A stretch of 44,932 nucleotides of DNA from a virus. The stretch covers positions 1 through 44,932 of IMG/VR virus record IMGVR_UViG_3300028840_001064. One strand, 5' to 3'. The notes below the pieces were generated by a model. It was not told the origin of the DNA. It saw only the letters and a list, made by a program, of their open reading frames with translations, and did no database searches. The translations under genes were made by a program, and so were the position numbers. This document shows positions 19,739 to 44,932 of this stretch, one piece after another (position 1 is the stretch's first letter; each line of letters starts with the position of its first letter).

Positions 19739-22700
19739 ATGGCGGAAGAGCAAGTCGGGATCGTCCTGACGGTCAAAGATCAGGCGACCTCGAAGATCCA
19801 GGCCTTCGCTCGTAACGCGCATCGGGCCTTCTCCTCCCTCCAGCGGCGCTCCGTCAGAATGTGGGATGCCGCGAACCGAGGCTGGAACCGCTTCGAGTCC
19901 GGGGCGAAGCGCTTCGTCCGCTTCACGACTCGGATGACGCAGGGGATCGGCGGGGCCGTGAAGTCGGTCATCAACCTGCGGAACGCCTTCCTCCTTCTGG
20001 GAGCGGCGGCTGCGATCCTCGGAGCTATCAAGGCGCTCGACCTCCTGATCCAGCGCGGCTCCGAAGTGAAGAGGACGACCGAGGCCTTCGTCTCCCTGAC
20101 GGGAGGCGTCGCGGGCTTCGGGAAGGAACTCGTCACGCGGACGGGGAAGGCGGTCCGGGGGCTGATCGGCGACCTGGATATCATGAGGTCCGCGAACCGC
20201 GCCGTCCTCCTGGGGATCCCGGTCACGGCGGAGAAGTTCGCCGAGCTTTCCGAGGCGGCCGTGATCCTCGGGCGTGCTATCGGGCGCGGGCCGGTCGAGG
20301 CCTTGAACGACCTCACCATCGGAATCGGGCGTCAGTCTCGAATGATCCTCGATAACCTCGGCCTGATCGTCTCGCTCGAAGAGGCGAACGAGAAATATGC
20401 TCGCTCCGTCGGGAAGACAACCGAAGACCTGACGGCGATGGAGCAAAAGCTCGCCTTCACGACCGAGACGATAGCGAAGGCGACGGAGAAGGCGGCGCAA
20501 CTCGGCCCGATCCAGGAGGACGTCGCAGATCACGCGACCCGGCTCAAGGGGAAGCTCTCCACGCTGGCGGATACCTGGAGCCACGGCGTTGTCGCCTCGG
20601 GCGTCTTCGGGCGCGTCCTGGAACTCCTGACCGGGCGGATGGATGAATATGAAGTCTCCGTCGACGAGGCGGCGCTCGCGACGAACCGCTTCATTCTCGC
20701 CTCGCTCCCCGCCGTCGGCAAGTTCATCAAGCTCGTTCTCTGGCTCAAGATCTCCTGGGAGGCCGTCGTCGCGGTGATCTATACGCTCGGGAGCGGGCTT
20801 AACACGGTCCTCGGCTTCGCGATTGAGAAGGTGACTCAGTCCTTCGCTCAGTTGTTCGACTATATCGCGCAGATCTACGACCTGATCCCCGGCATGGGCG
20901 GGATCGCGGATCGGATCTACGAGATGACCGGGAACCTCCGGAAGTTCGGCGTCGAGTGGGGGATCATCTTCACGAACTCGGCGACGGATAACGCAGAGAA
21001 GGCGGCCCAGGCTATCGCGAACCTCGCCGAGGCTTACGACGAACTGGCGGGCGTCGACCCGATGATCGCGGAATGGATCCGAGACCTGGAGCGCTTCCGC
21101 GAGGAGATCCTGAAGGGGAGCGGCGCAGCGAACGACCTCTCGAACGAGGTCCAGGAGATCAACGCGGCGGCCCAGAAGGTGAGCATCCGTCGCGACTTCC
21201 TCTCCGGGCTCGCCGTCGCTCGGGAGCAAACGAAGCAGATCGTCTTCCTCTTCGCAGAGTTCCAGGAGGAGATCGACAACCTGCGCGGCGAACTCGGGAC
21301 GGCGATGGACGCCCCGGCTATCGCAGCGCTGACGAAGGACCTCGACGTCGCCGAGGAGAAGATGGCGCTCTTCGCCCGGACGGTCGGGGGCGCTATGGAG
21401 GGGCTCGCGAAGAAGCTCCCGGCTGACGAGTTCCAGAACCTCGTCAACGTCGCTCGTCAGGGCGGCGGCTTGAACGAGGTCGAGGATACGGTCCGGGCGG
21501 TCGGCTACGAGTCGCAGAAGACGGCGTTCTTCGTCGAGGACCTGACGGCGGCCGTCGAGAAGGGGAATCTCTCGCTCCCGGCGCAGATCGCTCTCTACGG
21601 GCAGGCGGAAGCGGTCCTCTCGGAGTACGGGGAGGAACTTCGCGAGAAGCCCGAACTCCTGGAGCGACTGAAGGCGGCGATGGAGGCGCTCGAAGCGGAC
21701 CCGATAACGGCGGCCTTCTCCGTCCTGGAGACGGAGATGGAAGCCGTCGGGAAGACGGTCTCGTCGCTGACGGACCGGCTCAACGCGGGGAACCTCTCCG
21801 TCGCCGAGCGGAACAAGCTCTTCGAGATCGCGTCAACGCTCATGGAGCAATATGGAAACGACCTCCCAGTCGCGCAAGTCGAGGCGCTTCAGTATGCCAT
21901 CGACCGGCTCCGGCCGGACGCGGCGGTCGAGACCCTGCGAGCTATCCGGGCGGAGAATAAGCTCCTCGTCTCCGAGGCTCGCGAGTTCGCGGCTCAGCTT
22001 CAGTATGGGAACCTCTCCCTCGCCGAGCAATCGGATCTTTACGACGCCGTCGTCGGGAACCTGGACCGGCTGAAGCTCATCCTCGGCGAGACCTCGGCGG
22101 AGTATCAGAGCCTCCTCGAAGTTCTGGAGCGGACGCAGGGCGCACTCGAAGAGGCGAGCGAGACGAGCTTCCTCGAAGTCATGGGGGAGCGGCTCGGGCT
22201 CTTCCGGGACGAACTCGGGAACCTCCGGCAAGACCTGAAGGGCGGCTTCGCCGATCTCTTCGCGGGGGTCGTCGTCGGCTTCTCAGCTATGGCCGCAGAC
22301 GTGATCGTCGGGGCGCAGACCCTCTCCGAGGGCGTGAAGAATCTCCTCAAGTCGACGGCGCGGGCCGCGATCCAAATGCTGATTCAGATGGGGGTCCAGC
22401 GCTTGATCCTCATGATAAAGAACAAGGCGGCGACCGTGACCGAGGCAAGTTCGCAGATGGCGGCGGGCCTCTCCCAGGTCTTCGTCAACTCGTTCGCGAG
22501 CGCGGCGGCGATCCCTATCGTCGGCTGGGCGATGGCTCCGGCAGTCGCGGCGGCGAACCTCGCAGCGGCAACGGCTGGCGCGACGGCGGCAGCGGCGACG
22601 GGCGCAGGGCTGGGCGCAGCCGCAGGCGGCGCGGCCGAGGGAGCCTTCATCTCGGGGGCGACGACGGTCAACGTCGGCGAGGGGAATCAGCCCGAGCTTA

Positions 22701-30999: not shown

Positions 31000-31779
31000 A
31001 TGGCGACGAAGAACGCCGAGCTAACGATCCTCCTGGATCTGACGACGGAGCCGCAGGGCTCCGCGCAGGCCCGGGTCGACTCGTCTATCCGCTCCTGGGT
31101 CTACGCGAAGGGCTCGCGGATCCGGCAGGCGCAGGTCGATATCGACCTGGAGATGGGGGTCGAGGCTCTGCCCTTCGACGTCGATCTCCAGGGGCAATCC
31201 CGAGTCACGGTCGAGGCGGCCGGGAGCCTGGGAGTCGACGTCGCGCTCGCCGGGGCCGCAACCGTCCACGTCGACGCGAGAGGGGCTCTGGAGATCCCCC
31301 AGGACCTCACGGGCTCGATTACCGTCAGCGTCTCAGGAGCGGGCGCTCTGGAGGTCGAGCGGCCCCTTTCGGGGGCATCCGAGGTCTCGATCACGGGATC
31401 CGGGACCCTGGAGGTCGAGAAGCGCCTCTCGGGGACCTCCCGGGTCTCGACCCGAGCCCGGGGGAACCTGGAGGGCGGCTACGGTCCCGAGCCTCTGGCG
31501 GGGATGGGGGAGGAGGTCGGGGACGGGCTCGTCGTCGTCTCGAAGCTGAAGGGGAACCTCCTTCCGCTGGAGGCCTCGCCGGTCGATCCCTCCGGGGCTC
31601 CGCCGGATGGTCGGGGGGTCGTCTTCACCGAGGACGGCTCGGTCTGGATCTGGAATGCCTCGGGTCCGGCCTGGGTCGAGGTCTCCGGCGGGGGCGGCGG
31701 CGGAGACTACAACATCGACGGAGGGAACGCTTCCTCGGTCTATACCCCGGAGCAAAATCTCGACGGAGGGGGCGCGTAG
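31000..31779 (+). CDS. fibre protein with five 20-residue repeats
   Basis: A 259-residue protein. After the MATKNAEL start and a short helix come five head-to-tail repeats of 20 residues (63-162), each beginning L-x-G-x and holding V-x-V-x...G-x-L-x-V strands, consistent with a beta-solenoid or triple beta-helix shaft. The C-terminal 90 residues contain VVFTEDGSVWIWNASG and end DGGNASSVYTPEQNLDGGGA, an ending typical of tail-fibre proteins. It lies just before the main fibre gene with a 3-nt gap. Probable role: shaft or joint of a side fibre. Confidence 0.6.
   Translation: MATKNAELTILLDLTTEPQGSAQARVDSSIRSWVYAKGSRIRQAQVDIDLEMGVEALPFDVDLQGQSRVTVEAAGSLGVDVALAGAATVHVDARGALEIPQDLTGSITVSVSGAGALEVERPLSGASEVSITGSGTLEVEKRLSGTSRVSTRARGNLEGGYGPEPLAGMGEEVGDGLVVVSKLKGNLLPLEASPVDPSGAPPDGRGVVFTEDGSVWIWNASGPAWVEVSGGGGGGDYNIDGGNASSVYTPEQNLDGGGA
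31186..31485 (+). repeat. five tandem 60-bp coding repeats
   Basis: Five successive 60-nt units encode the pattern LxGxxxVxVxxxGxLxVxxx. The third and fourth units are closest at DNA level (both with CTGGAGGTCGAG), the outer ones more diverged. Such in-frame repeats allow shaft length to change by slippage or recombination. Confidence 0.7.
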
Positions 31780-36488: not shown

Positions 36489-36520
36489 CGGGCCGAGCGT
36501 CCAGAAGGGAAGGGGCAACG

Positions 36521-36754
36521 ATGCCGCATGATCTGAAGAGGCCTCCAGACCTGGAGGTCTTCTATACGCTGAAGCAAACGCTCAATTCTCTACGGATGAG
36601 CGAGCGCGGCCTTCAGCTTCTCGTCGAGCGCGGGATCTTGAAGCGCTATCGCTGGGGGACGCGGAGCTACTTCCGGGCGTCGGTTGTGAGGCGGCTCGCC
36701 TTCCGGGGGATCCCGGATAAGCGCTTCAAGTCCGGGCTGAGGCCGGTCTCATGA
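36521..36754 (+). CDS. small winged-helix/excisionase-type DNA-binding protein
   Basis: A 77-residue protein. Residues about 14-58 have the MerR/AlpA/excisionase layout: YTLKQTLNSLRMSERGLQLLVERGILKRYR followed by a wing-like WGTRSYFR. It is very basic at the end. The ATG is 4 nt after AAGGGGC. As the first gene after a promoter it is a likely regulator of this operon. A role in excision is possible, but no integrase is in the window. It overlaps the next start (ATGA). Confidence 0.65.
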   Translation: MPHDLKRPPDLEVFYTLKQTLNSLRMSERGLQLLVERGILKRYRWGTRSYFRASVVRRLAFRGIPDKRFKSGLRPVS

Positions 36755-37806
36755 GGAAGCTCTCCGAGATCGATGCCGTCCTGACGGAGCTTCAGGATAC
36801 GCTCGCCTTTCCGGTCGAGCAAGTCTCCCGGGCGCACGCTCACGACCTCGCGAAGAGCGGGCGCAATCTGATCTCCTACGCGACCGCGAAGGGCGACCCG
36901 CTCACTCTCCACGAGGCGGAGAAGGAGGGCTGGGATAACGTCGTCTTCTACTGGCATAAAGCCATCGAGAAGAGCCCCGCGAGCGTGACTCATAAGGGCT
37001 ACGATACGACCGGCGTCAAGGCTCAGTTCATCGTCAACGCCTTGAACCGGGTCCTCGGGCTCGACGGCTGGGAGGAGGAGAACACTTTCGAGAAGACCGA
37101 GATCGTCTTCGGTCGCTCGAAGAAGGAGGGATGGCACGTTACCTGCCGGACGGTCCTTCGCGTCATGTTCGAGAACGACGTCGAGGGTCGAGAGATCGAC
37201 GGGAAGCGGCCGTCGGTCTGGAGCGTCTATCGTCAGGCCTGGGGCGAGCATACCTCTATCGAGAAGGGCTCGGCGCTGAAGGGGGCGCAAACGAATGCGT
37301 TTAAGAAGGTCGCCTCCCTCGTCGGCTGCGGAGCCATCGCCTATGAGAAGACGCTCGACGAAGACGCGGCTCCTCTCCCGGCGAAGCCGGAGGAGACCGC
37401 CCCGGCGCGGACGCCTCAAGGCCGCGTCGCCGGGACGGGTCGGGCCGAGCCCGAGCCTCCGCTGAAGACCGAAGAGAAGGGCGAGGGTCCGATCCCCGAG
37501 GGCTTCGAGGATGCGGACGAGACGCTGAAGAAGTTCTGGAGCGAGGTCGCGAAGTTCATCGGGAAGATCCCCGACTGGGAGCGCGGCGTCGTTTGCTATC
37601 TCAGGACGACGAACAAGATCGATCTGATCGCGGACTCGAAGCAAACGCCCGCGAGGGACGCGGCGCTTCAAGCCTTCTGGAAGGTCCTCCGGGATCTGGA
37701 CGACGCGACGCGGAAGGCGACGGTCGAGAACGCGATCAAGCTCGACGAGATGGCGGCCGAGGGTCCGCCCGCAGAAGGAGAGGGGGTCCCGTTCGGCGAT
37801 GCCTAG
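36751..37806 (+). CDS. Rad52-like single-strand annealing protein
   Basis: A 351-residue protein that should anneal complementary single strands during phage recombination. The family core covers about 85-205: FIVNALNRVLGLDGW, then an alternating strand region (WHVTCRTVLRVMF) and the typical SALKGAQTNAFKKVASLVGCG helix, equivalent to A.TDA.KRA...G in Rad52/DdrA proteins. A Pro/Glu-rich linker (about 208-250) and a helical C-terminal domain follow, ending EGEGVPFGDA. The nuclease encoded next would supply the single strands. The start overlaps the previous stop and the end overlaps the nuclease start. Confidence 0.75.
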   Translation: MRKLSEIDAVLTELQDTLAFPVEQVSRAHAHDLAKSGRNLISYATAKGDPLTLHEAEKEGWDNVVFYWHKAIEKSPASVTHKGYDTTGVKAQFIVNALNRVLGLDGWEEENTFEKTEIVFGRSKKEGWHVTCRTVLRVMFENDVEGREIDGKRPSVWSVYRQAWGEHTSIEKGSALKGAQTNAFKKVASLVGCGAIAYEKTLDEDAAPLPAKPEETAPARTPQGRVAGTGRAEPEPPLKTEEKGEGPIPEGFEDADETLKKFWSEVAKFIGKIPDWERGVVCYLRTTNKIDLIADSKQTPARDAALQAFWKVLRDLDDATRKATVENAIKLDEMAAEGPPAEGEGVPFGDA

Positions 37807-38767
37807 CTATTATTCTCACTCGCAACTGACGAAGCTCGCGTCCTGCCCCCGGGCCTACAAGTTCCAGTATGAAGACCGGGTCAAGACAAGGCTCGAACCT
37901 CAATTTTTCGTCGTCGGGACCTGCGTCGAGAACGCGATCAACGCCTACCTTCTGGCGCGTGACGACGGGAAGGACATCGGAGTCGAAGGGCTCCTCGGCG
38001 TATTTGATCGGACCTGGGAGCTTGAGGTCCTGAAGCGGGCCTCCTCGAAGAAGAAGATCGACTGGAAGGACGCCGACCCTGACGAGATCCGGAAGACGAT
38101 CCGGGGTCTCGTCGAGACCTTCCCGGCGCGAGGGGCTCCGTACATCAAGCGGGTCTATCTGACGCAGGCGCGGCTCGCGCTCGACGCACCTCTCGGCCTG
38201 AGCCGGGACTTCCTCGGCTTCGCCGACTTCATCGCCGACGTCTACCTCCCTCGCGACTGCGAGCGTTGTAAGGGGGACGGTTCGGTCCAGGTTCCGCAGA
38301 AGAAGGATCCGAAGAAGACGAAGTCGGCTCCCTGCGATTCCTGCGCGGCCTCGGGGATGAAGCCGACGCAGGTTGCCGTCCTCGCCGTGATCGATCTGAA
38401 GACCGCCTCGCAGAAGTGGAGCAAGCTCCAGGCGACGGCCGACTCGCAGGCGACGGAATACGTCTGGACGGTCCAGCGAATGCCGCCGCTCGTCGCCGGG
38501 ACGAAGACGCTCCCCGCTCCGACTCACGCGGGCTATCTCGTCGGCGTGAAGTCGAAGGCGGCGATCTGGCAGTTCCATCTCCGCGAGCCCTCGCCCTTTG
38601 ATTTTATGGAGGTCGAGTCGGCGCTCAAGGCTCACGAGACGCTGATCCGATCCGGAGAGCGCCCGAGGAATCCCGGTTACGCGGGGCGGAACTGCGATTG
38701 GTGCGACTTCCGATCCCTATGCTGGGAGCCCGGCAAGGCGGGCGAGACGCTCATTCTGAAGAGCTAG
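37799..38767 (+). CDS. RecB/Cas4-like PD-(D/E)XK nuclease with probable Fe-S cluster and inserted zinc motif
   Basis: A 322-residue protein, likely the exonuclease partner of the annealing protein. Visible motifs are SHSQLTKLASCPRAY (Cys16), GFADFIADV (Asp143), VIDLKTAS (Asp199, Lys201), the QxxxY motif (Gln217, Tyr221), and C-terminal cysteines 299, 302 and 308 (CDWCDFRSLC). Cys16 plus these three match the four ligands of the 4Fe-4S staple in AddB/Cas4 nucleases. Between Asp143 and Asp199 lies an insertion with CERC ... CDSC (DnaJ-type CxxC pairs), absent from most relatives. Lys-rich loops flank it. The stop precedes a terminator. Confidence 0.75.
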   Translation: MPSYYSHSQLTKLASCPRAYKFQYEDRVKTRLEPQFFVVGTCVENAINAYLLARDDGKDIGVEGLLGVFDRTWELEVLKRASSKKKIDWKDADPDEIRKTIRGLVETFPARGAPYIKRVYLTQARLALDAPLGLSRDFLGFADFIADVYLPRDCERCKGDGSVQVPQKKDPKKTKSAPCDSCAASGMKPTQVAVLAVIDLKTASQKWSKLQATADSQATEYVWTVQRMPPLVAGTKTLPAPTHAGYLVGVKSKAAIWQFHLREPSPFDFMEVESALKAHETLIRSGERPRNPGYAGRNCDWCDFRSLCWEPGKAGETLILKS

Positions 38768-38772
38768 GATCC

Positions 38773-38847
38773 GGGGACTTCAGGGCTCCCCGCCGTGACT
38801 CCCCCTCCGGCGGGTCCGCTGAGATCGCCCTGAAGTCCCCTCTTTTT
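38773..38847 (+). terminator. strong intrinsic terminator
   Basis: A perfect 13-bp inverted repeat, GGGGACTTCAGGG (38773-38785) with CCCTGAAGTCCCC (38828-38840), is followed by TCTTTTT (38841-38847). The 42-nt loop holds an inner GC-rich CCCGCCG/CGGCGGG hairpin. It ends the recombination operon 6 nt after the nuclease stop codon. The reverse strand lacks a T-run, so it works in the + direction. Confidence 0.88.
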
Positions 38848-38865
38848 CCCGATCTGGAGGGCATA

Positions 38866-38894
38866 TTGACCTAAGTCTAGGCGGAGGTTATACT
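38866..38894 (+). promoter_or_regulatory. strong putative sigma-70 promoter for the replication genes
   Basis: TTGACC (38866-38871), a 17-bp spacer and TATACT (38889-38894): 5 of 6 matches in each box with ideal spacing. It lies in the only clearly intergenic region of the right half, just after the terminator. It would start RNA near 38901 and drive 38931 onward through helicase, HNH, initiator and RusA. Confidence 0.75.
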
Positions 38895-38899
38895 TATAA

Positions 38900-38918
38900 C
38901 TGAGGGATGGTCCCTCAG
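38900..38918. promoter_or_regulatory. perfect hairpin at the transcript 5' end, next to the ribosome binding site
   Basis: CTGAGGGA-TGG-TCCCTCAG is an 8-bp perfect inverted repeat with a 3-nt loop. It spans the expected +1 and touches AAGGAGG (38919-38925). In RNA it would form a 5'-terminal stem-loop that could protect the message or control access to the ribosome binding site; in DNA it could be an operator. Confidence 0.6.
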
Positions 38919-38930
38919 AAGGAGGAACCG

Positions 38931-40115
38931 ATGGCGTTCAAGAACCTCGTAAGTAGAAGCCCCATTAAGAAGGAAGCCCAGGACGCGCTCCGCGAGAGCG
39001 CCGGACTGCCGCAGGGTCGCGGCCGAGTGACCCGCGTCAAGATCGACCTTGAGACCGACCGGGTCCAGGGTCACGTCATCGTCCCTCGCGGTTTCAGCGC
39101 GGAGGGCGGAGTCCTCGTCGCGGCGATCTCGCCCGACGCCGCCGAGCAACATCAGAAGTTCCTCTCGGAGGAGGCGCTCCAGGATCGTTGCTTCGCCGAG
39201 GGGAAGAAGGTCGGCTTCGAGTTCCCGAACGAGGAGCCGAAGAATCCCTACGGTCGCGACTGGAAAAACGAGGAGCGCTCCAGGCTGGAGCGGGTCTCCC
39301 ATCACTACTGGCGGAACGGCTGGGAGGCGGGGCGCGAGCGCTACTTCTCGCGCTTCTGCCAGATCTGCCGCCGCCGGGACGAGTCTATCGTCCACGGCTT
39401 CCACGTCTTCGACATCGATCTCGTCTACGGGGATCACGACCTCGCGACGCAGCGTTACCGTTACTTCAAGGCCTGCGCGTCCTGCCGCGCCTTCGTCCAG
39501 GAGACCGAGGCCGAGCGGATGAACGTCGACCGGCCTTCCGACGATCCGCCTCCGGGCGCGTCGGTCGGCCCGAAGGATCACCGGAAGGAACGCTTCGCCG
39601 TCATGTTCGAGAACTCCGACGGTCCCGAGTCTCTTCACGGCTGCCGCTATTATGGCGGCGGCTCGCTCTACGGGACGACGGACGCGCAGAAGGCGCTCCT
39701 CATGAGGAAGAGCGTCGCTCAGAGGCAGGCGAAGAAGCTCGACGGCCGGATCGTCTCCGAGTTCGAGATGGACCGGATCATCGCCGACGAGAAGAAGGCG
39801 GCCGAGGCGCAGTTCGAGGCCGAGAACGAGGCCGAGCGGATCATGAGCGAGCGGAGCGGCGGCGGGAATCCCGTCGCCGTGATCTCCTCTCCTCCTGAGC
39901 CGACGAGCCCGCCTCCGGCGGTCGAGCCGGTCGAGCCGGGGACGGAGGAAGGCTGCCGCGCCTGCGAGCGCTATCCCGTCCTCTGCGGCTGCGGCTGGGG
40001 GAACCTGAGCCTCCCGGCCTGCGAGGTCCCGCAGTTCTGCCCGGTCTGCGGCTTCGACTTCTGGGCGAACCTGGAAGAGCCCGACATCTCCGAGAACTGC
40101 GCGAGGTTGATATGA
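38931..40115 (+). CDS. early zinc-ribbon protein of unknown function
   Basis: A 394-residue protein. The ATG at 38931 has AAGGAGG 5 nt upstream; a start at 38907 lies inside the hairpin and is rejected. The middle contains CQICRRR ... CASC (about 143-183), and the end contains CRACERYPVLCGCGWG ... CPVCGFDFW, a zinc-ribbon pair. Between them is a Lys/Glu-rich helix (about 260-310) and a Pro-rich linker. Many Arg and His suggest nucleic-acid binding. As first gene after the strongest promoter and next to the helicase it may be a replication or host-takeover protein. No family was recognised. Confidence 0.55.
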   Translation: MAFKNLVSRSPIKKEAQDALRESAGLPQGRGRVTRVKIDLETDRVQGHVIVPRGFSAEGGVLVAAISPDAAEQHQKFLSEEALQDRCFAEGKKVGFEFPNEEPKNPYGRDWKNEERSRLERVSHHYWRNGWEAGRERYFSRFCQICRRRDESIVHGFHVFDIDLVYGDHDLATQRYRYFKACASCRAFVQETEAERMNVDRPSDDPPPGASVGPKDHRKERFAVMFENSDGPESLHGCRYYGGGSLYGTTDAQKALLMRKSVAQRQAKKLDGRIVSEFEMDRIIADEKKAAEAQFEAENEAERIMSERSGGGNPVAVISSPPEPTSPPPAVEPVEPGTEEGCRACERYPVLCGCGWGNLSLPACEVPQFCPVCGFDFWANLEEPDISENCARLI

Positions 40116-42040
40116 GCGTCCTCGACAACGCGCTCCTGACTCCCGATCAGCGGGCCTTCGTCGAGCATGACGAGGGTCCGCTCGTCGCGCTCTCGGTCGC
40201 CGGGAGCGGGAAGACTCACGCGCTCACTTACCGGATCGCTCGGCTCCTGGAGAAGGGGGTCCCTCCGGAGGAGATCGTCGCCGTGACGTTTACGAAGAAG
40301 GCGGCGGGCGAGATGGCGGAGCGCGTCGCGAAGCTCGTCGACGATGAGGCGATCTCCTCGAAGCTCAACGTCCGGACCTTTCACTCCTTCTGCTATTCGA
40401 TCCTGCGGGAGTGCGGGAAGGGACGGAAGGGCGTCGCGGCCGACTGGCAGCAAAAGAAGATCGTTCAAGACGTCCTGAAGGAGCGGGGCATCGACGAGCA
40501 ACCCGTCCCGATCCTCAACGCGATCTCCTGGCTGAAGAATAACCTCGAAGAGCCGGACCCGAACGGCGAGAGCGTGAAGGGCGTCCCCGCCTGGATCGTC
40601 GACGCCGTCTTCCACGAATACGAGAAGGCGAAGGTCCGGCAGAACATCCTCGACTTCGACGATATGCTCGTCCTCGGCCTCCAGGCCGTGAAGAAGAGGG
40701 CCGAGCATTATCGGAAGCGCTTCCCGTGGGTCCTCGTCGACGAGTTCCAGGATACGAACGTCGCGCAGTTCGCCCTTCTGAAGGCGCTCTGCCCGACCCG
40801 TTGCAGCGCGGGCTCGAAGAACCTCACGAAGGGGCCGAATCTGACGGTTGTCGGCGACGATGATCAGTCGATCTATGGCTGGAGAGCGGCGAAGCCTGAG
40901 TTCCTGATCCAGTTCGAGGAGACGTATTCTGACGCGACGGTTGTTCGGATGCAGGAGAACTTCCGCTGCGTCGAGCCGATCCTGAATCACGCGAACGACC
41001 TCATTCATCATAACGAGGTCCGCGTCCCGAAGAGACTCGTCGCCGGACTCGACGCCCAGAAGAAGGGGAACGAGCCCTCGATTCTCTTCGGCGCTGACGA
41101 AGACGACGAAGCCTCCCGGATCCTGGAGGAGGCAGTCTCTCTTCACGAGGCGGAGAAGGTCGACTGGAAGGACATCGCCGTTCTCTACCGGACGAACGCG
41201 CAGAGCCGGGCGCTCGAAGACGAGCTTATCCGGCAGCGCATCCCTTACCAGATCCTCGGCGGGCTCGGCTTCTACGGTCGCGCCGAAGTGAAGGACCTCG
41301 TCGCCTATGCTCGGCTCGCCGTCAACGTCGACGATGACGAGGCCTTCTCCCGGGTCTACAACCGGCCGAACCGCTTCCTCGGGAAGGCCGCGCTCAAGGC
41401 GATCCAGACTCACGCGACGAAGCGGAAGTCCTCCCTCTTCGCGGCGGCCGACGACCTGAAGGTCTGGCCGAGGCGCTATATGGAGGGCAAGGTCGACGAG
41501 TTCCTGGGGATCCTGCGGAGCTTCCAGGGACGCGGCGGCGACCCCGGCGAGACGCTGAAGGCTCTCGCCGAGATGATCGGTTATCGAGCGTATCTCGCCG
41601 AGCAAGGCGACGACGACGCCGATGATTCGCGCTGGGAGAACTGCGAGAGTCTCTTCACGGCGGCCTCGGGCTTCGAGGCGCTCGGAGACTTCGTCTTCTT
41701 CGCGAAGCAAGCGGGCGAGAAGAAGGCGGCCGAGAACGGTCGCGACGCGCTGACGCTCCTCACTCTTCACCGTTCGAAGGGGCTGGAGTGGCCGGTCGTC
41801 TTCGTCGCCGGGGTCTGCGGAGGCCTCCTGCCTCACGCCCGGAACGAAGACGTTGAAGAAGAGCGCCGATTGCTTTATGTTGGTATGACGCGGGCTCGGC
41901 GTGACCTCTTCCTCGGCGTCCCCGCGATGGTCAACGGAAAGCCCCGGGACGTTTCCTTCTTCCTCGCGGAGACCGGGATCGCGTCCACGGTGAAGGAGCC
42001 GACGAAAGTCGAGACCGAAGGAGGGACCGATGGCAAGTAA
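40112..42040 (+). CDS. UvrD/Rep/PcrA-type DNA helicase
   Basis: A 642-residue superfamily 1A helicase that unwinds DNA 3' to 5' using ATP. All main motifs are visible: LTPDQRAFV near residue 9, Walker A AGSGKT (30-35), VAVTFTKKAAGEM, RTFHSFCYSIL, Walker B VDEFQDTN (Asp210-Glu211), GDDDQSIYGWR (about 250), ENFRC, VLYRTNAQSRALE, LHRSKGLEWPVVFV and the arginine-finger motif GMTRAR (591-596). Length is near the family norm, with no large insertion. The start overlaps the previous stop (ATGA). It likely drives phage replication or recombination from the nearby origin. Confidence 0.95.
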   Translation: MSVLDNALLTPDQRAFVEHDEGPLVALSVAGSGKTHALTYRIARLLEKGVPPEEIVAVTFTKKAAGEMAERVAKLVDDEAISSKLNVRTFHSFCYSILRECGKGRKGVAADWQQKKIVQDVLKERGIDEQPVPILNAISWLKNNLEEPDPNGESVKGVPAWIVDAVFHEYEKAKVRQNILDFDDMLVLGLQAVKKRAEHYRKRFPWVLVDEFQDTNVAQFALLKALCPTRCSAGSKNLTKGPNLTVVGDDDQSIYGWRAAKPEFLIQFEETYSDATVVRMQENFRCVEPILNHANDLIHHNEVRVPKRLVAGLDAQKKGNEPSILFGADEDDEASRILEEAVSLHEAEKVDWKDIAVLYRTNAQSRALEDELIRQRIPYQILGGLGFYGRAEVKDLVAYARLAVNVDDDEAFSRVYNRPNRFLGKAALKAIQTHATKRKSSLFAAADDLKVWPRRYMEGKVDEFLGILRSFQGRGGDPGETLKALAEMIGYRAYLAEQGDDDADDSRWENCESLFTAASGFEALGDFVFFAKQAGEKKAAENGRDALTLLTLHRSKGLEWPVVFVAGVCGGLLPHARNEDVEEERRLLYVGMTRARRDLFLGVPAMVNGKPRDVSFFLAETGIASTVKEPTKVETEGGTDGK

Positions 42041-42833
42041 AGAGGCAAAGGGCAAGTTGTCGAGGGTCGGGGCAGCCTCCGGGCTGCCCCTTCCTGATTC
42101 TGCGGAAGGCCTGGACTCTGAGGTCCGGGATCTCGTCGCGTCGCTGGACCGGAACGCGCTCCGCCTGGGAGACCTCCTGCGTGAGGTCCAGCGGACGGAG
42201 GGCTGGGTCCCTCTGGGCTTCCAGACCTTCGACGAATACCTGAAGCATCGCTTCGACCGGCGGCGGCGCTGGGCTCAACTCGTGATCCGGGCGGCGGAGA
42301 AGATGGCCGAGCTTCCCCTCCTGCGGGAGAAGGCGAGCGTCCTCGGCCCCTCGAAGACCCGGCTCCTCGCGGACGCGGCGACGCCGGAGACGGAGAAGGC
42401 CTGGATCGAGCGCGGGCTCTCTTCGACCTTCCGGGACCTGAAGGCCGCCGTTACCTCCTGCCGGGACAACGGCGGGGCGGCGAAGGGGAAGGTCGACCCC
42501 GGCGCGGAGAAGACGACGACGACCTACTTCTCCCTCTTCAGGGGGCAGTCGGAGACGGTCGAGCGAGCCCTGGAGATCGCGGCTCGGTCGACGAACTCGG
42601 AGAAGCGGGGTCATAACTTGGAGATGATCGCGGCCGAGTTCCTGACCGTCTACGGGGCAGAGGAGGAAGACGAGAAGGTCGTCTTCCGGGCTCGGCTTCG
42701 GGAAGTCATAAATCACCTTGCGACCCAGGACGAAAAGGCGGTTCTCCGCCTCCTGGAGGCCGCTGGCTGGGATGTAGGAGGAATCGAGGGGGCGAAGGTC
42801 CCGGACGGCGCTCTCGTCGCCTGGAGGGGCTGA
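42030..42833 (+). CDS. helical DNA-binding-type protein, partner-like to the HNH gene
   Basis: A 267-residue protein overlapping the helicase gene by 11 nt. Residues about 45-140 (GFQTFDEYLKHRFDRRRRWAQ, LRLLADAATPETEKAWIERG, RDLKAAV) resemble the helical N-terminal part of a large bacterial family that usually ends in an HNH nuclease domain (pattern F.SF..Y...R.....R.A...L..A....LP.L...). Here that HNH domain is a separate gene directly downstream. The rest is helical with no catalytic residues. It may bind DNA. Confidence 0.5.
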   Translation: MASKEAKGKLSRVGAASGLPLPDSAEGLDSEVRDLVASLDRNALRLGDLLREVQRTEGWVPLGFQTFDEYLKHRFDRRRRWAQLVIRAAEKMAELPLLREKASVLGPSKTRLLADAATPETEKAWIERGLSSTFRDLKAAVTSCRDNGGAAKGKVDPGAEKTTTTYFSLFRGQSETVERALEIAARSTNSEKRGHNLEMIAAEFLTVYGAEEEDEKVVFRARLREVINHLATQDEKAVLRLLEAAGWDVGGIEGAKVPDGALVAWRG

Positions 42834-42835
42834 GA

Positions 42836-43213
42836 ATGGGTCGAGGCTTTCCCCGGCGACGGGTCAAGCGGCGACCGGCGGACCCCCGGAAGAGCAAGGC
42901 GGAGTCCTGGAGGAAGCGGGCCTCGGAGGTCTTCGAGCGCGACGGCTATCGATGCCGGGCGCTGACCGACCCCCTCCCTCGGCCGACGGGTGATCCGACC
43001 TCTGAGGAGCGCTGCCGGCGGCGGGCGACCCTTCAGGCTCATCACCTTCTCAACCGATCTCAGGGCGGCAAGGATCACCCGGACAACCTCTTGACCCTCT
43101 GCGCCGATCACCATACGGCCGCGACCCTCCGGAAGGAGGTCTTCTACCGGGATCGCTATGGGCTCCTAGCGCGAGCCTGGAGGCTCTCCTGGGAGGCGGA
43201 GCCGACCCCGTGA
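42836..43213 (+). CDS. HNH endonuclease
   Basis: A 125-residue nuclease. The core is LQAHHLLNRSQGGKDHPDNLLTLCADHH: the His-His pair, the central Asn (DNLLTLC) and the final His form the beta-beta-alpha metal site, with Cys residues (CRAL, CRRR, LCADHH) able to hold a structural zinc. The first 35 residues are basic. It is two bases after the helical partner-like gene. It may act in packaging-end processing, recombination or homing, although no intron is visible. The stop overlaps the next GTG. Confidence 0.8.
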   Translation: MGRGFPRRRVKRRPADPRKSKAESWRKRASEVFERDGYRCRALTDPLPRPTGDPTSEERCRRRATLQAHHLLNRSQGGKDHPDNLLTLCADHHTAATLRKEVFYRDRYGLLARAWRLSWEAEPTP

Positions 43214-44079
43214 AGGGTGGGGCGATCCTCCTCTGGCGGTCGGTCCAGACAACCGAGGCGCTCTCCGACCGGGAGCCCTCCTGCGAGCGCTGGGCCTGGA
43301 CGGACATCCTCCTCTCGGCGTCGGCGAACGGCTTCGAGGGGCTCGGCCCGGGGGAGGTCCGGATGACGGCTCGCTTCCTCGCGAACCGGCACCGCTGGAG
43401 CCGAGGGAAGGCGGAGCGCTTCCTCGCGAAGCTCGTTCGAGAGGAGATGCTGATCCCCGTCCGGCGGGCCGTCTCCAGGCACGAGGGGAGCGTCTACCGG
43501 ATCGCGAACTGGAGCGAGGGGCAGAAGTTCCCGTCGTCTGCGCGGAAGGGCGCAGACGTTTACGCGGGGCCGTGGGAGCGGGACGGTAAACGAGACGGTA
43601 AGCGGGACGGTAAGAAGCCCTCCCAGACTGGCGCTCCAGTCGATGCCGGGACGGTAAGCGGGACGGTAAGCGGGACGAAGTCAACTAAGATCAGCAACGC
43701 AGATCAACAAACTGATCGCGGCTCGCGGGCTCCCCGCGACTACTCTCGCTCGAAGAGCCCTCACGTCCGGCTCCTCGGCTACTTCCTGGATCTCCACGAG
43801 AGCCATAGGTTCGGCGAATACGATCCGGTCTTCGGGCGCGACTACAAGATCCTCCGAGACCTCGTCGGGCTCAACGGCGAGGCCCTGGCTCGCGAATACG
43901 TCGAGGCGTTCTTCAACGCCTGCCGCTGGAAGGAAGACCTCCGGCAGCCGATGAAGGAGGACCGGGACGACCCCCGCTTCTGGGCGGGGAGTTGCTCGCT
44001 CTCGGTCCCGGGTCTCCTGAAGGCGCTCCCTCACCTGAAGCGGGGCTATACGTTCGAGAATAAGCGGAAGAGAGGCTGA
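43210..44079 (+). CDS. replication initiator-like protein carrying the origin
   Basis: A 289-residue protein from a GTG overlapping the HNH stop. The first 110 residues have the winged-helix layout of phage initiators: W.D.L..A..., RMTARFLANRHRWSRGKAERFLAKLVREEMLIP, then a YRIANW wing end. A low-complexity linker (DGKRDGKRDGKK and GTVSGTVSGTK, about 124-158) is the coded form of 12-bp DNA repeats, and a helical C-terminal domain follows (about 180-285, LGYFLDLHESHRFGEYDP ... YVEAFFNACRWKED). Iterons inside the initiator gene with an adjacent AT-rich tract are known from lambda O. No ATPase motif is visible. Confidence 0.65.
   Translation: MKGGAILLWRSVQTTEALSDREPSCERWAWTDILLSASANGFEGLGPGEVRMTARFLANRHRWSRGKAERFLAKLVREEMLIPVRRAVSRHEGSVYRIANWSEGQKFPSSARKGADVYAGPWERDGKRDGKRDGKKPSQTGAPVDAGTVSGTVSGTKSTKISNADQQTDRGSRAPRDYSRSKSPHVRLLGYFLDLHESHRFGEYDPVFGRDYKILRDLVGLNGEALAREYVEAFFNACRWKEDLRQPMKEDRDDPRFWAGSCSLSVPGLLKALPHLKRGYTFENKRKRG
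43535..43558. repeat. 9-bp inverted repeat left of the iterons
   Basis: CGTCTGCGC (43535-43543) and GCGCAGACG (43550-43558) are perfect complements with a 6-nt loop. It begins 45 nt before the iteron array and may be a binding site of a dimeric replication protein. Confidence 0.55.
43580..43683. repeat. iteron array, putative origin of replication
   Basis: Five 12-bp direct repeats with consensus GGGACGGTAAGC occur at 43580, 43592, 43604, 43648 and 43660, in two groups of three and two with no spacer inside a group. A decayed sixth copy starts at 43672 (GGGACGAAG). Directly right (about 43679-43717) the DNA becomes AT-rich and contains GATCAG/CTGATC. The set inverted repeat, iterons and AT-rich tract matches the lambdoid origin plan. 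Confidence 0.7.
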
Positions 44080-44080
44080 G

Positions 44081-44722
44081 ATGGCGAAGTCGAATAGAGG
44101 CGACGACGAAGAGGTCGGCGGATGGTGGCTCCCGAAGGACTGGGAGAACCTCTCGAAGTGCGACGGGCTCGTCCACTTGGAAGACGACCTCGGGGACGTC
44201 CACGTCGCGATCTGCGAGCAACGTCACTCCTACGACTCGGCGGACTTCTTCGGGCATCAAATCGAGAAGCGGAAGGTCGGGATCGAGATCCAGACTCGGC
44301 GGGCCTCTGACCGTTACGCGGACCGCTTCAAGCCGGAGGACTATGTCCGGAGCCTGATCGCGAGGATCAACTCGAAGGCGGCCCGGGTCGTCTCCGAGCG
44401 GCTGACGGGGAAGCGGGGGATCCCGCCCGAGGCGAAGGAGGCCTTCCAGATCCGCGACCGGGTCCGGGCTGAGCTTGAGAAGCTGATCCCTGAGTCGAGC
44501 CGACCGAGCCGACCGGCCGGGGCTCTCTACGATCTCGTGACCGGCGGCGGCGACTCCTGGGAGGAGTGGCGGCGGGCGGATCAGGACTGGAGCGCCCGGC
44601 GGCGTCAGGCCATCCTAGCGCTCTGGGAGAAGCATACCGGGGGCTCGCGAGTCGAGCGCGTGAGCGGCCCGAGGGAGCTTCCGCTGCCCGAGGTCCCGGA
44701 AGGCGATGAGGTCCCCTTCTAG
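44081..44722 (+). CDS. hypothetical replication-region protein with an SSB-like acidic tip
   Basis: A 213-residue protein one base after the initiator stop. The N-terminus is acidic with WWLPKDW; the centre is mixed with IGIEIQTRR-type strands and basic helices (YVRSLIARINSKAARVVSERL). The last residues, PEVPEGDEVPF, resemble the acidic Pro-Phe tip of single-stranded DNA-binding proteins (DDDIPF), which recruits repair and replication proteins. No OB-fold is recognisable, so it is not called SSB. It overlaps the RusA start by 17 nt. Confidence 0.5.
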   Translation: MAKSNRGDDEEVGGWWLPKDWENLSKCDGLVHLEDDLGDVHVAICEQRHSYDSADFFGHQIEKRKVGIEIQTRRASDRYADRFKPEDYVRSLIARINSKAARVVSERLTGKRGIPPEAKEAFQIRDRVRAELEKLIPESSRPSRPAGALYDLVTGGGDSWEEWRRADQDWSARRRQAILALWEKHTGGSRVERVSGPRELPLPEVPEGDEVPF

Positions 44723-44932
44723 CGAGCCTGAGCGCGTCGAGCCGGTCTCCTTCTTCGTCGAGGGGAAGCCCCAGGCATGGGAGCGGGCGATCCCTCGGCG
44801 AGGGGGGAAGGGGCGCTTCACGGCTCCGAAGGACCGGGCCTGGAGGACCCGGGTCGGCTGGGCTGGGAGGCAGGCGATGGGGCCGCGCTCGCCGCTGGAG
44901 ATCCCCGTCGCGCTGCATCTCGTCTTCGTCCT
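44706..44932 (+). CDS. rusA: RusA-type Holliday junction resolvase (3' truncated by window end)
   Basis: The 75 visible codons show the RusA N-terminus: VSFFVEGKPQAWERAIPRRGGKGRFTAPKDRAWRTRV in outline (strand F..EG.P...ERA, Lys/Arg loop, T.PK...W...), then an Ala/Gly helix and the strand VALHLVF. The catalytic acidic residues lie later and are beyond the window. The ATG at 44706 is inside the end of the preceding gene. It would resolve four-way junctions made by the annealing and nuclease pair or by replication forks before packaging. Confidence 0.75.
   Translation, partial: MRSPSSEPERVEPVSFFVEGKPQAWERAIPRRGGKGRFTAPKDRAWRTRVGWAGRQAMGPRSPLEIPVALHLVFV

Follow-up and report, generated by a model that had tools for sequence, protein, structure and literature searches.

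A candidate theta-replication origin of the iteron type within the initiator gene of a GC-rich phage

The virus record IMGVR_UViG_3300028840_001064 of IMG/VR, analysed here over its whole length of 44,932 bases (hereafter, the window), very probably holds the theta-replication origin of this phage at positions 43577-43716, within the gene that encodes its own initiator. An iteron-type origin inside this gene had been proposed in an earlier note on the same DNA, and it is the best-supported reading at the sequence level, as suggested by direct repeats that occur in two reading frames, an AT-rich tract, the homology of the initiator, the predicted disorder of the encoded protein segment, and the layout observed in relatives. 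For a GC-rich phage to which the collections searched offer no close relative, this amounts to a concrete prediction of the origin, in which one stretch of DNA would serve both as a protein linker and as an array of binding sites.

The initiator gene and its surroundings

The record has a GC content of ~65% and contains terminase, portal, capsid and tape-measure genes. Its first and last 500 bases have no 16-mers in common. Its last part (36751-44932) is a recombination-replication module, with a Rad52-like protein, a PD-(D/E)XK nuclease, a UvrD helicase, an HNH protein, the initiator, and a RusA-like resolvase whose gene is cut by the end of the record at 44932. No helicase/loader gene was recognised among the scanned proteins of the record and, since the record stops inside the RusA-like gene, such partner genes may lie outside it. 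The gene that follows the initiator (44081-44722) gave neither Pfam nor PHROG matches. The protein at 42030-42833 belongs to phrog_17202, of unknown function; its distant matches in Vibrio, Rhizobium, Rhodobacter and Stenotrophomonas phages weakly hint at a proteobacterial host. In the intergenic region at 38773-38840, the arms of a perfect 14-bp inverted repeat enclose a long loop, with TCTTTTT after the repeat (noted by eye), and a promoter-like site comes next at 38866-38894; these two elements are probably a terminator plus an early promoter. This site and another one at 38601-38628 are the two promoter-like sites within 36500-44932, and none occurs near the start of the initiator gene. 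Outside the module, a 60-bp tandem repeat of ~2.1 copies lies within a coding region (31348-31474). Searches against viral contigs, genome contigs and phages at E 1e-3 did not detect any close relative at the protein or DNA level, so that conservation can only be tested at ~20-30% protein identity.

The features of the initiator gene are as follows:

43210-44079, + strand: initiator/replisome organizer gene of the DnaD-like helicase loader family, 289 aa
43282-43524, + strand: winged-helix DNA-binding domain, aa 25-105 (AlphaFold2, pLDDT mostly 79-96)
43525-43740, + strand: predicted disordered linker, aa 106-177, which holds the iterons and the AT tract (AlphaFold2)
43580-43591, + strand: iteron 1, GGGACGGTAAAC
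43592-43603, + strand: iteron 2, GAGACGGTAAGC
43604-43615, + strand: iteron 3, GGGACGGTAAGA
43648-43659, + strand: iteron 4, GGGACGGTAAGC, frame shifted with respect to iterons 1-3
43660-43671, + strand: iteron 5, GGGACGGTAAGC, in the frame of iteron 4
43672-43683, + strand: iteron half copy (motif rank 27,179)
43677-43716, + strand: AT-rich tract of 40% GC (record, 65%), candidate DNA-unwinding element
43701-43712, + strand: AGATCAACAAAC, candidate further binding site, rank 1 of 89,842 positions with the iteron motif of the relatives
43759-44025, + strand: C-terminal helical region, aa 184-272 (helices in a low-confidence AlphaFold2 model)

The initiator matched phrog_2514 (DnaD-like helicase loader) over aa 1-192 with E=2e-6, and the same family was matched by all 79 members of alignment A3, described below. 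A tblastn search of the protein against phages gave weak matches to gene 38 of SPP1 and to other replisome organizers (best E ~0.01), and the identity of its N-terminal domain to five phage relatives, including SPP1 gp38, is 27-32%. A winged-helix N-terminal domain homologous to that of the phrog_2514/SPP1 gp38-type organizers is thus present according to PHROG, alignment and model. The AlphaFold2 model, obtained from an input of 79 sequences, shows no secondary structure for aa 106-177, with low pLDDT over most of this stretch, which includes the residues encoded by the repeats and the AT tract (aa 124-169). The C-terminal helical part, modelled with low confidence (mean pLDDT 65), is presumed to contact a partner protein. 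Foldseek searches of predicted viral structures returned replisome organizers among the matches, and those of the PDB only weak ones (none at E <= 0.001), with the RepA initiator N-domains 5kbj, 4pql and 4pt7 among other winged helices; a sequence search of the PDB gave nothing meaningful. The protein matched no Pfam family at E<=0.1, and we rejected on this basis its membership in the lambda O family (Phage_rep_O, PF04492), as well as in the RepA_N plasmid initiators, with which the fold similarity of the N-domain is weak.

Repeats and AT-rich tract

The five 12-bp repeats in 3+2 layout that had been reported inside this ORF are indeed found there, with copies at 43580-43671 that each differ by at most one mismatch from GGGACGGTAAGC. 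Iterons 1-3 read RDGK and iterons 4-5 read GTVS, which gives the peptides DGKRDGKRDGK and GTVSGTVSG as previously described. A supposed decayed copy after them is only half a match (the first 6 of the 12 bases of 43672-43683 on the + strand), and there is no second cluster, as the rest of the 44,932 bases does not contain any copy of GGGACGGTAAGC at fewer than two mismatches. A 9-bp inverted repeat at 43535-43558 does exist, although it is not conserved and is probably incidental to the origin: four such repeats (arms >=9, loop 3-12) occur in the window and none (arms >=8) was found around 53 other arrays checked, for which reason it is not counted as an origin part.

Two features of origins of the oriL/ori-lambda type, a direct-repeat array inside the initiator gene and an AT-rich region adjoining the repeats, are present. 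The AT-rich stretch had also been correctly noticed: the 40 bp from 43677 rank fifth in order of increasing stability among the non-overlapping 40-bp windows of the record, and the 45 bp 3′ of the array have a GC content at the 0.6th percentile for the gene, which makes this region a candidate for DNA unwinding. Imperfect repeats can also be observed inside the tract (43678-43712), namely AAGTCAAC, AGATCAGCAACG and AGATCAACAAAC, the last two being 13 bp apart. GC skew, which had been put forward as a marker of the origin, did not help, as the cumulative skew climbs almost steadily without any turning point.

Such an array is not expected from base composition. At the array, 150 bp contain five exact copies of one 8-mer, compared with a maximum of three in 100 dinucleotide shuffles of the whole window and a maximum of three in the rest of the window (1-43500). 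Moreover, both repeat clusters have in common an identical string of 21 nt, GACGGTAAGCGGGACGGTAAG, which is read in different frames; none of 20,000 simulations, in which both peptides were encoded with the codon usage of the record, reproduced it, and the longest shared string obtained was of 18 nt. The repeats also make use of rare codons (GGT, 39 of 575 Gly; GTA, 9 of 482 Val, in the genes counted). A string kept in two frames, together with rare codons, points to sequence repeats that would be maintained for their DNA rather than for their peptide, although a duplication with a change of frame would equally yield the 21-nt string in two frames.

Distant relatives and rival readings

A profile search for relatives of the initiator gave 137 viral loci, of which the best 80 were fetched, together with 30 genomic loci. 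A set of 118 genes (the window, 110 loci and 7 phage records) was reduced to 98 after removing 20 near-duplicates, and 79 of these 98 formed alignment A3, used for families and structure, which left out the records of the phage collection and whose remainder was picked by eye; near-duplicates were skipped there too, as were some genes that were short or incomplete. A gene was scored as carrying an array if a 9-mer with at least four G/C was present four or more times within 150 bp, one mismatch being allowed. Among the 97 relatives (viral ones, the best 80 of 137), arrays of this kind were present in 53 and missing, in this strict form, in 44, compared with 4 of 186 neighbouring ORFs. The copies occupied more than one reading frame in 44 of the 97 (that is, 44 of the 53 with arrays), versus 1 of the 186. 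The same layout and array position thus recur in many distant relatives. Taking only the 54 arrays with at least four copies, window included, 42 of 53 have, in the 45 bp after the array, a GC content within the lowest quartile for the gene (one of the 54 lacks the full stretch), and the GC minimum of the gene lies at the array end in 30 of the 54, versus 8.4 expected.

The spacing of motif sites in the relatives (viral ones, again the best 80 of 137) peaks at 12 bp (n=133), 11 bp (n=72) and 67 bp (n=25). The latter peak is due to an extra iteron-like copy that many of them carry ~67 bp upstream of the main array (for example, at L016:3268-3390), near codons 86-92, a position that corresponds to the wing loop in the AlphaFold2 model of the window protein. 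The motif itself, ~GG[TG]ACA[AG]CA[AG]AC, was reached from 2 of 15 random expectation-maximisation starts; four others gave shifted versions and nine gave low-complexity A/T motifs, as judged by reading the consensus strings. Because site densities on the linkers used for training are circular, enrichment was taken from a split between clusters of N-domains, where the held-out linkers had 14.05 sites/kb and the remainder of the gene 1.19; in the reverse split the values were 7.26 and 1.49.

With a motif trained without the window, its five repeats rank 40, 408, 409, 528 and 648 of 89,842. The claim of a DNA-binding specificity that appears new therefore stands in part: the repeats have diverged and score modestly, but the 12-bp unit departs from the consensus of the relatives at three positions, all of them transitions, and the AT tract keeps the best match of the record. 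The motif alone would not identify the origin, since the best cluster of five sites scores 21.45 here and 21.39 at 20352, and we rejected this score as a proof for the window because it does not discriminate. We also set aside a correlation between iteron and N-domain distances (Mantel rho 0.209, with 0 of 500 permutations as high, and 0.207 after GC; 81 of the 97 relatives, those with at least three sites) as support for the origin, since shared ancestry alone could give it.

Three other explanations were considered for the repeats. That they are a tandemly duplicated flexible linker with no function as DNA is improbable in our judgement, even if they encode a predicted disordered segment, a unit of 12 bp is a multiple of 3, so that slippage keeps the frame, and a weaker null, the permutation of the synonymous codons of the gene itself, reached five copies (9-mer, one mismatch) in 1 of 50 trials. 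What argues against it is that the two clusters share their DNA in two frames and not their protein, that relatives mix spacings of 11 and 12 bp as well as frames, and that such arrays are so infrequent in the neighbouring ORFs. The repeats could instead be an operator for the repression or timing of their own gene, with no origin involved, as iteron-binding initiators often autoregulate. We regard this option as highly unlikely: the repeats are found ~370 bp inside the gene, the promoter-like sites of 36500-44932 are all away from its start, and the array is followed by an AT tract, as are most of those examined and as happens in the SPP1 and lambda origins.

Equally slim are the chances that the true origin lies elsewhere, for example in the AT-rich intergenic stretch at ~38862, and that the array is accessory or secondary. 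The least stable 40-bp window of the record is precisely that at 38862, and SPP1 has two origins, one of them outside gene 38 (PMC6316719). Nonetheless, the neighbouring 38866-38894 resembles a promoter, and the best cluster of motif sites on the + strand is not found at 38862.

Beyond the origin of this phage, our data suggest a broader hypothesis, which we consider about evenly balanced between true and false: embedded origins would be general to this initiator family across many bacterial phyla, built on one core of 11-12 bp (~ACA[AG]CA[AG]AC) that is read in several frames and placed in two permissive loops, the linker and the copy ~67 bp upstream near the wing loop. The window would then be a GC-rich outlier, whose repeats have drifted by transitions and where one near-canonical box is left in the unwinding tract. 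This family-wide pattern, computational as it is, is a more interesting result than a single origin, and no description of it was found in the literature searched, which covers a minority of subscription papers. If true, origins could be predicted from initiator genes alone, and the window would capture a DNA-binding specificity changing inside its own coding sequence. If the pattern of the relatives holds experimentally, the co-evolution of a DNA-binding domain with the sites in its own gene would become testable.

Proposed mechanism and known systems

Returning to the origin at 43577-43716, the order of initiation steps can be proposed for this phage by analogy with SPP1. The winged-helix N-domain would bind the 12-bp iterons, with the box at 43701 as a possible further site, and the distortion of the DNA by several bound protomers would open the AT-rich tract. 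A helicase or loader, probably that of the host, given that none was recognised among the scanned proteins, would then be recruited by the C-terminal domain, and the nearby recombination genes would be used later for the formation of concatemers. The functions as DNA and as protein would be compatible, since the iterons are placed where the protein needs just a flexible linker.

Among the known systems, the parallel with lambda O drawn in the earlier note holds for the layout, with iterons and an AT tract located centrally in the initiator gene (PMC7466680), but not beyond it: lambda has four 18-bp iterons, and its O protein is called unrelated to gp38 in PMC5499656. Layout is also what the window has in common with the Francisella phage KIRK, where iterons and an origin inside the replication gene fhv_0043 are described in PMC7924643; in that case the origin is itself a prediction, and the C-terminus is of the Phg_2220_C family, to which the window protein gave no match. 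In the Staphylococcus phage 80alpha, the origin would lie inside ORF20, a putative replisome organizer gene, with a RusA gene nearby; supplying ORF20 in trans did not complement its loss, from which the authors infer an embedded origin (PMC5499656), and the deposited record annotates a rep_origin inside ORF20. The repeats in the 80alpha linker, in contrast, do not match the motif of the relatives.

The closer model is SPP1, whose oriL lies within gene 38 and has direct repeats, bound by gp38 (G38P), next to an AT-rich unwinding element (PMC6316719). The winged-helix N-domain of gp38 is ~28% identical to that of the window, and in gene 38 the direct repeats also come directly after this domain, in more than one frame, and are followed by an A-rich stretch. 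Differences are found in the repeats, which in SPP1 are of 11 bp and AAACGACAC-type versus the 12-bp GGGACGGTAAGC, and in the C-terminal part of gp38, not visibly similar to that of the window. The A-rich part of SPP1 differs as well by its 9-bp AACAATGAT repeats; A-rich repeats of this type, which encode NND/NNE, are located right after the iterons of both SPP1 and Page (L002:1906-1937 and L007:1945-2003), and the window does not have them. Finally, gene 38 is followed by genes 39 and 40, the roles of which are given in PMC6316719, and no such genes were recognised in the window. The kind of origin is therefore a known one, and the best reading of the window is that of a divergent, GC-rich member of the SPP1 type.
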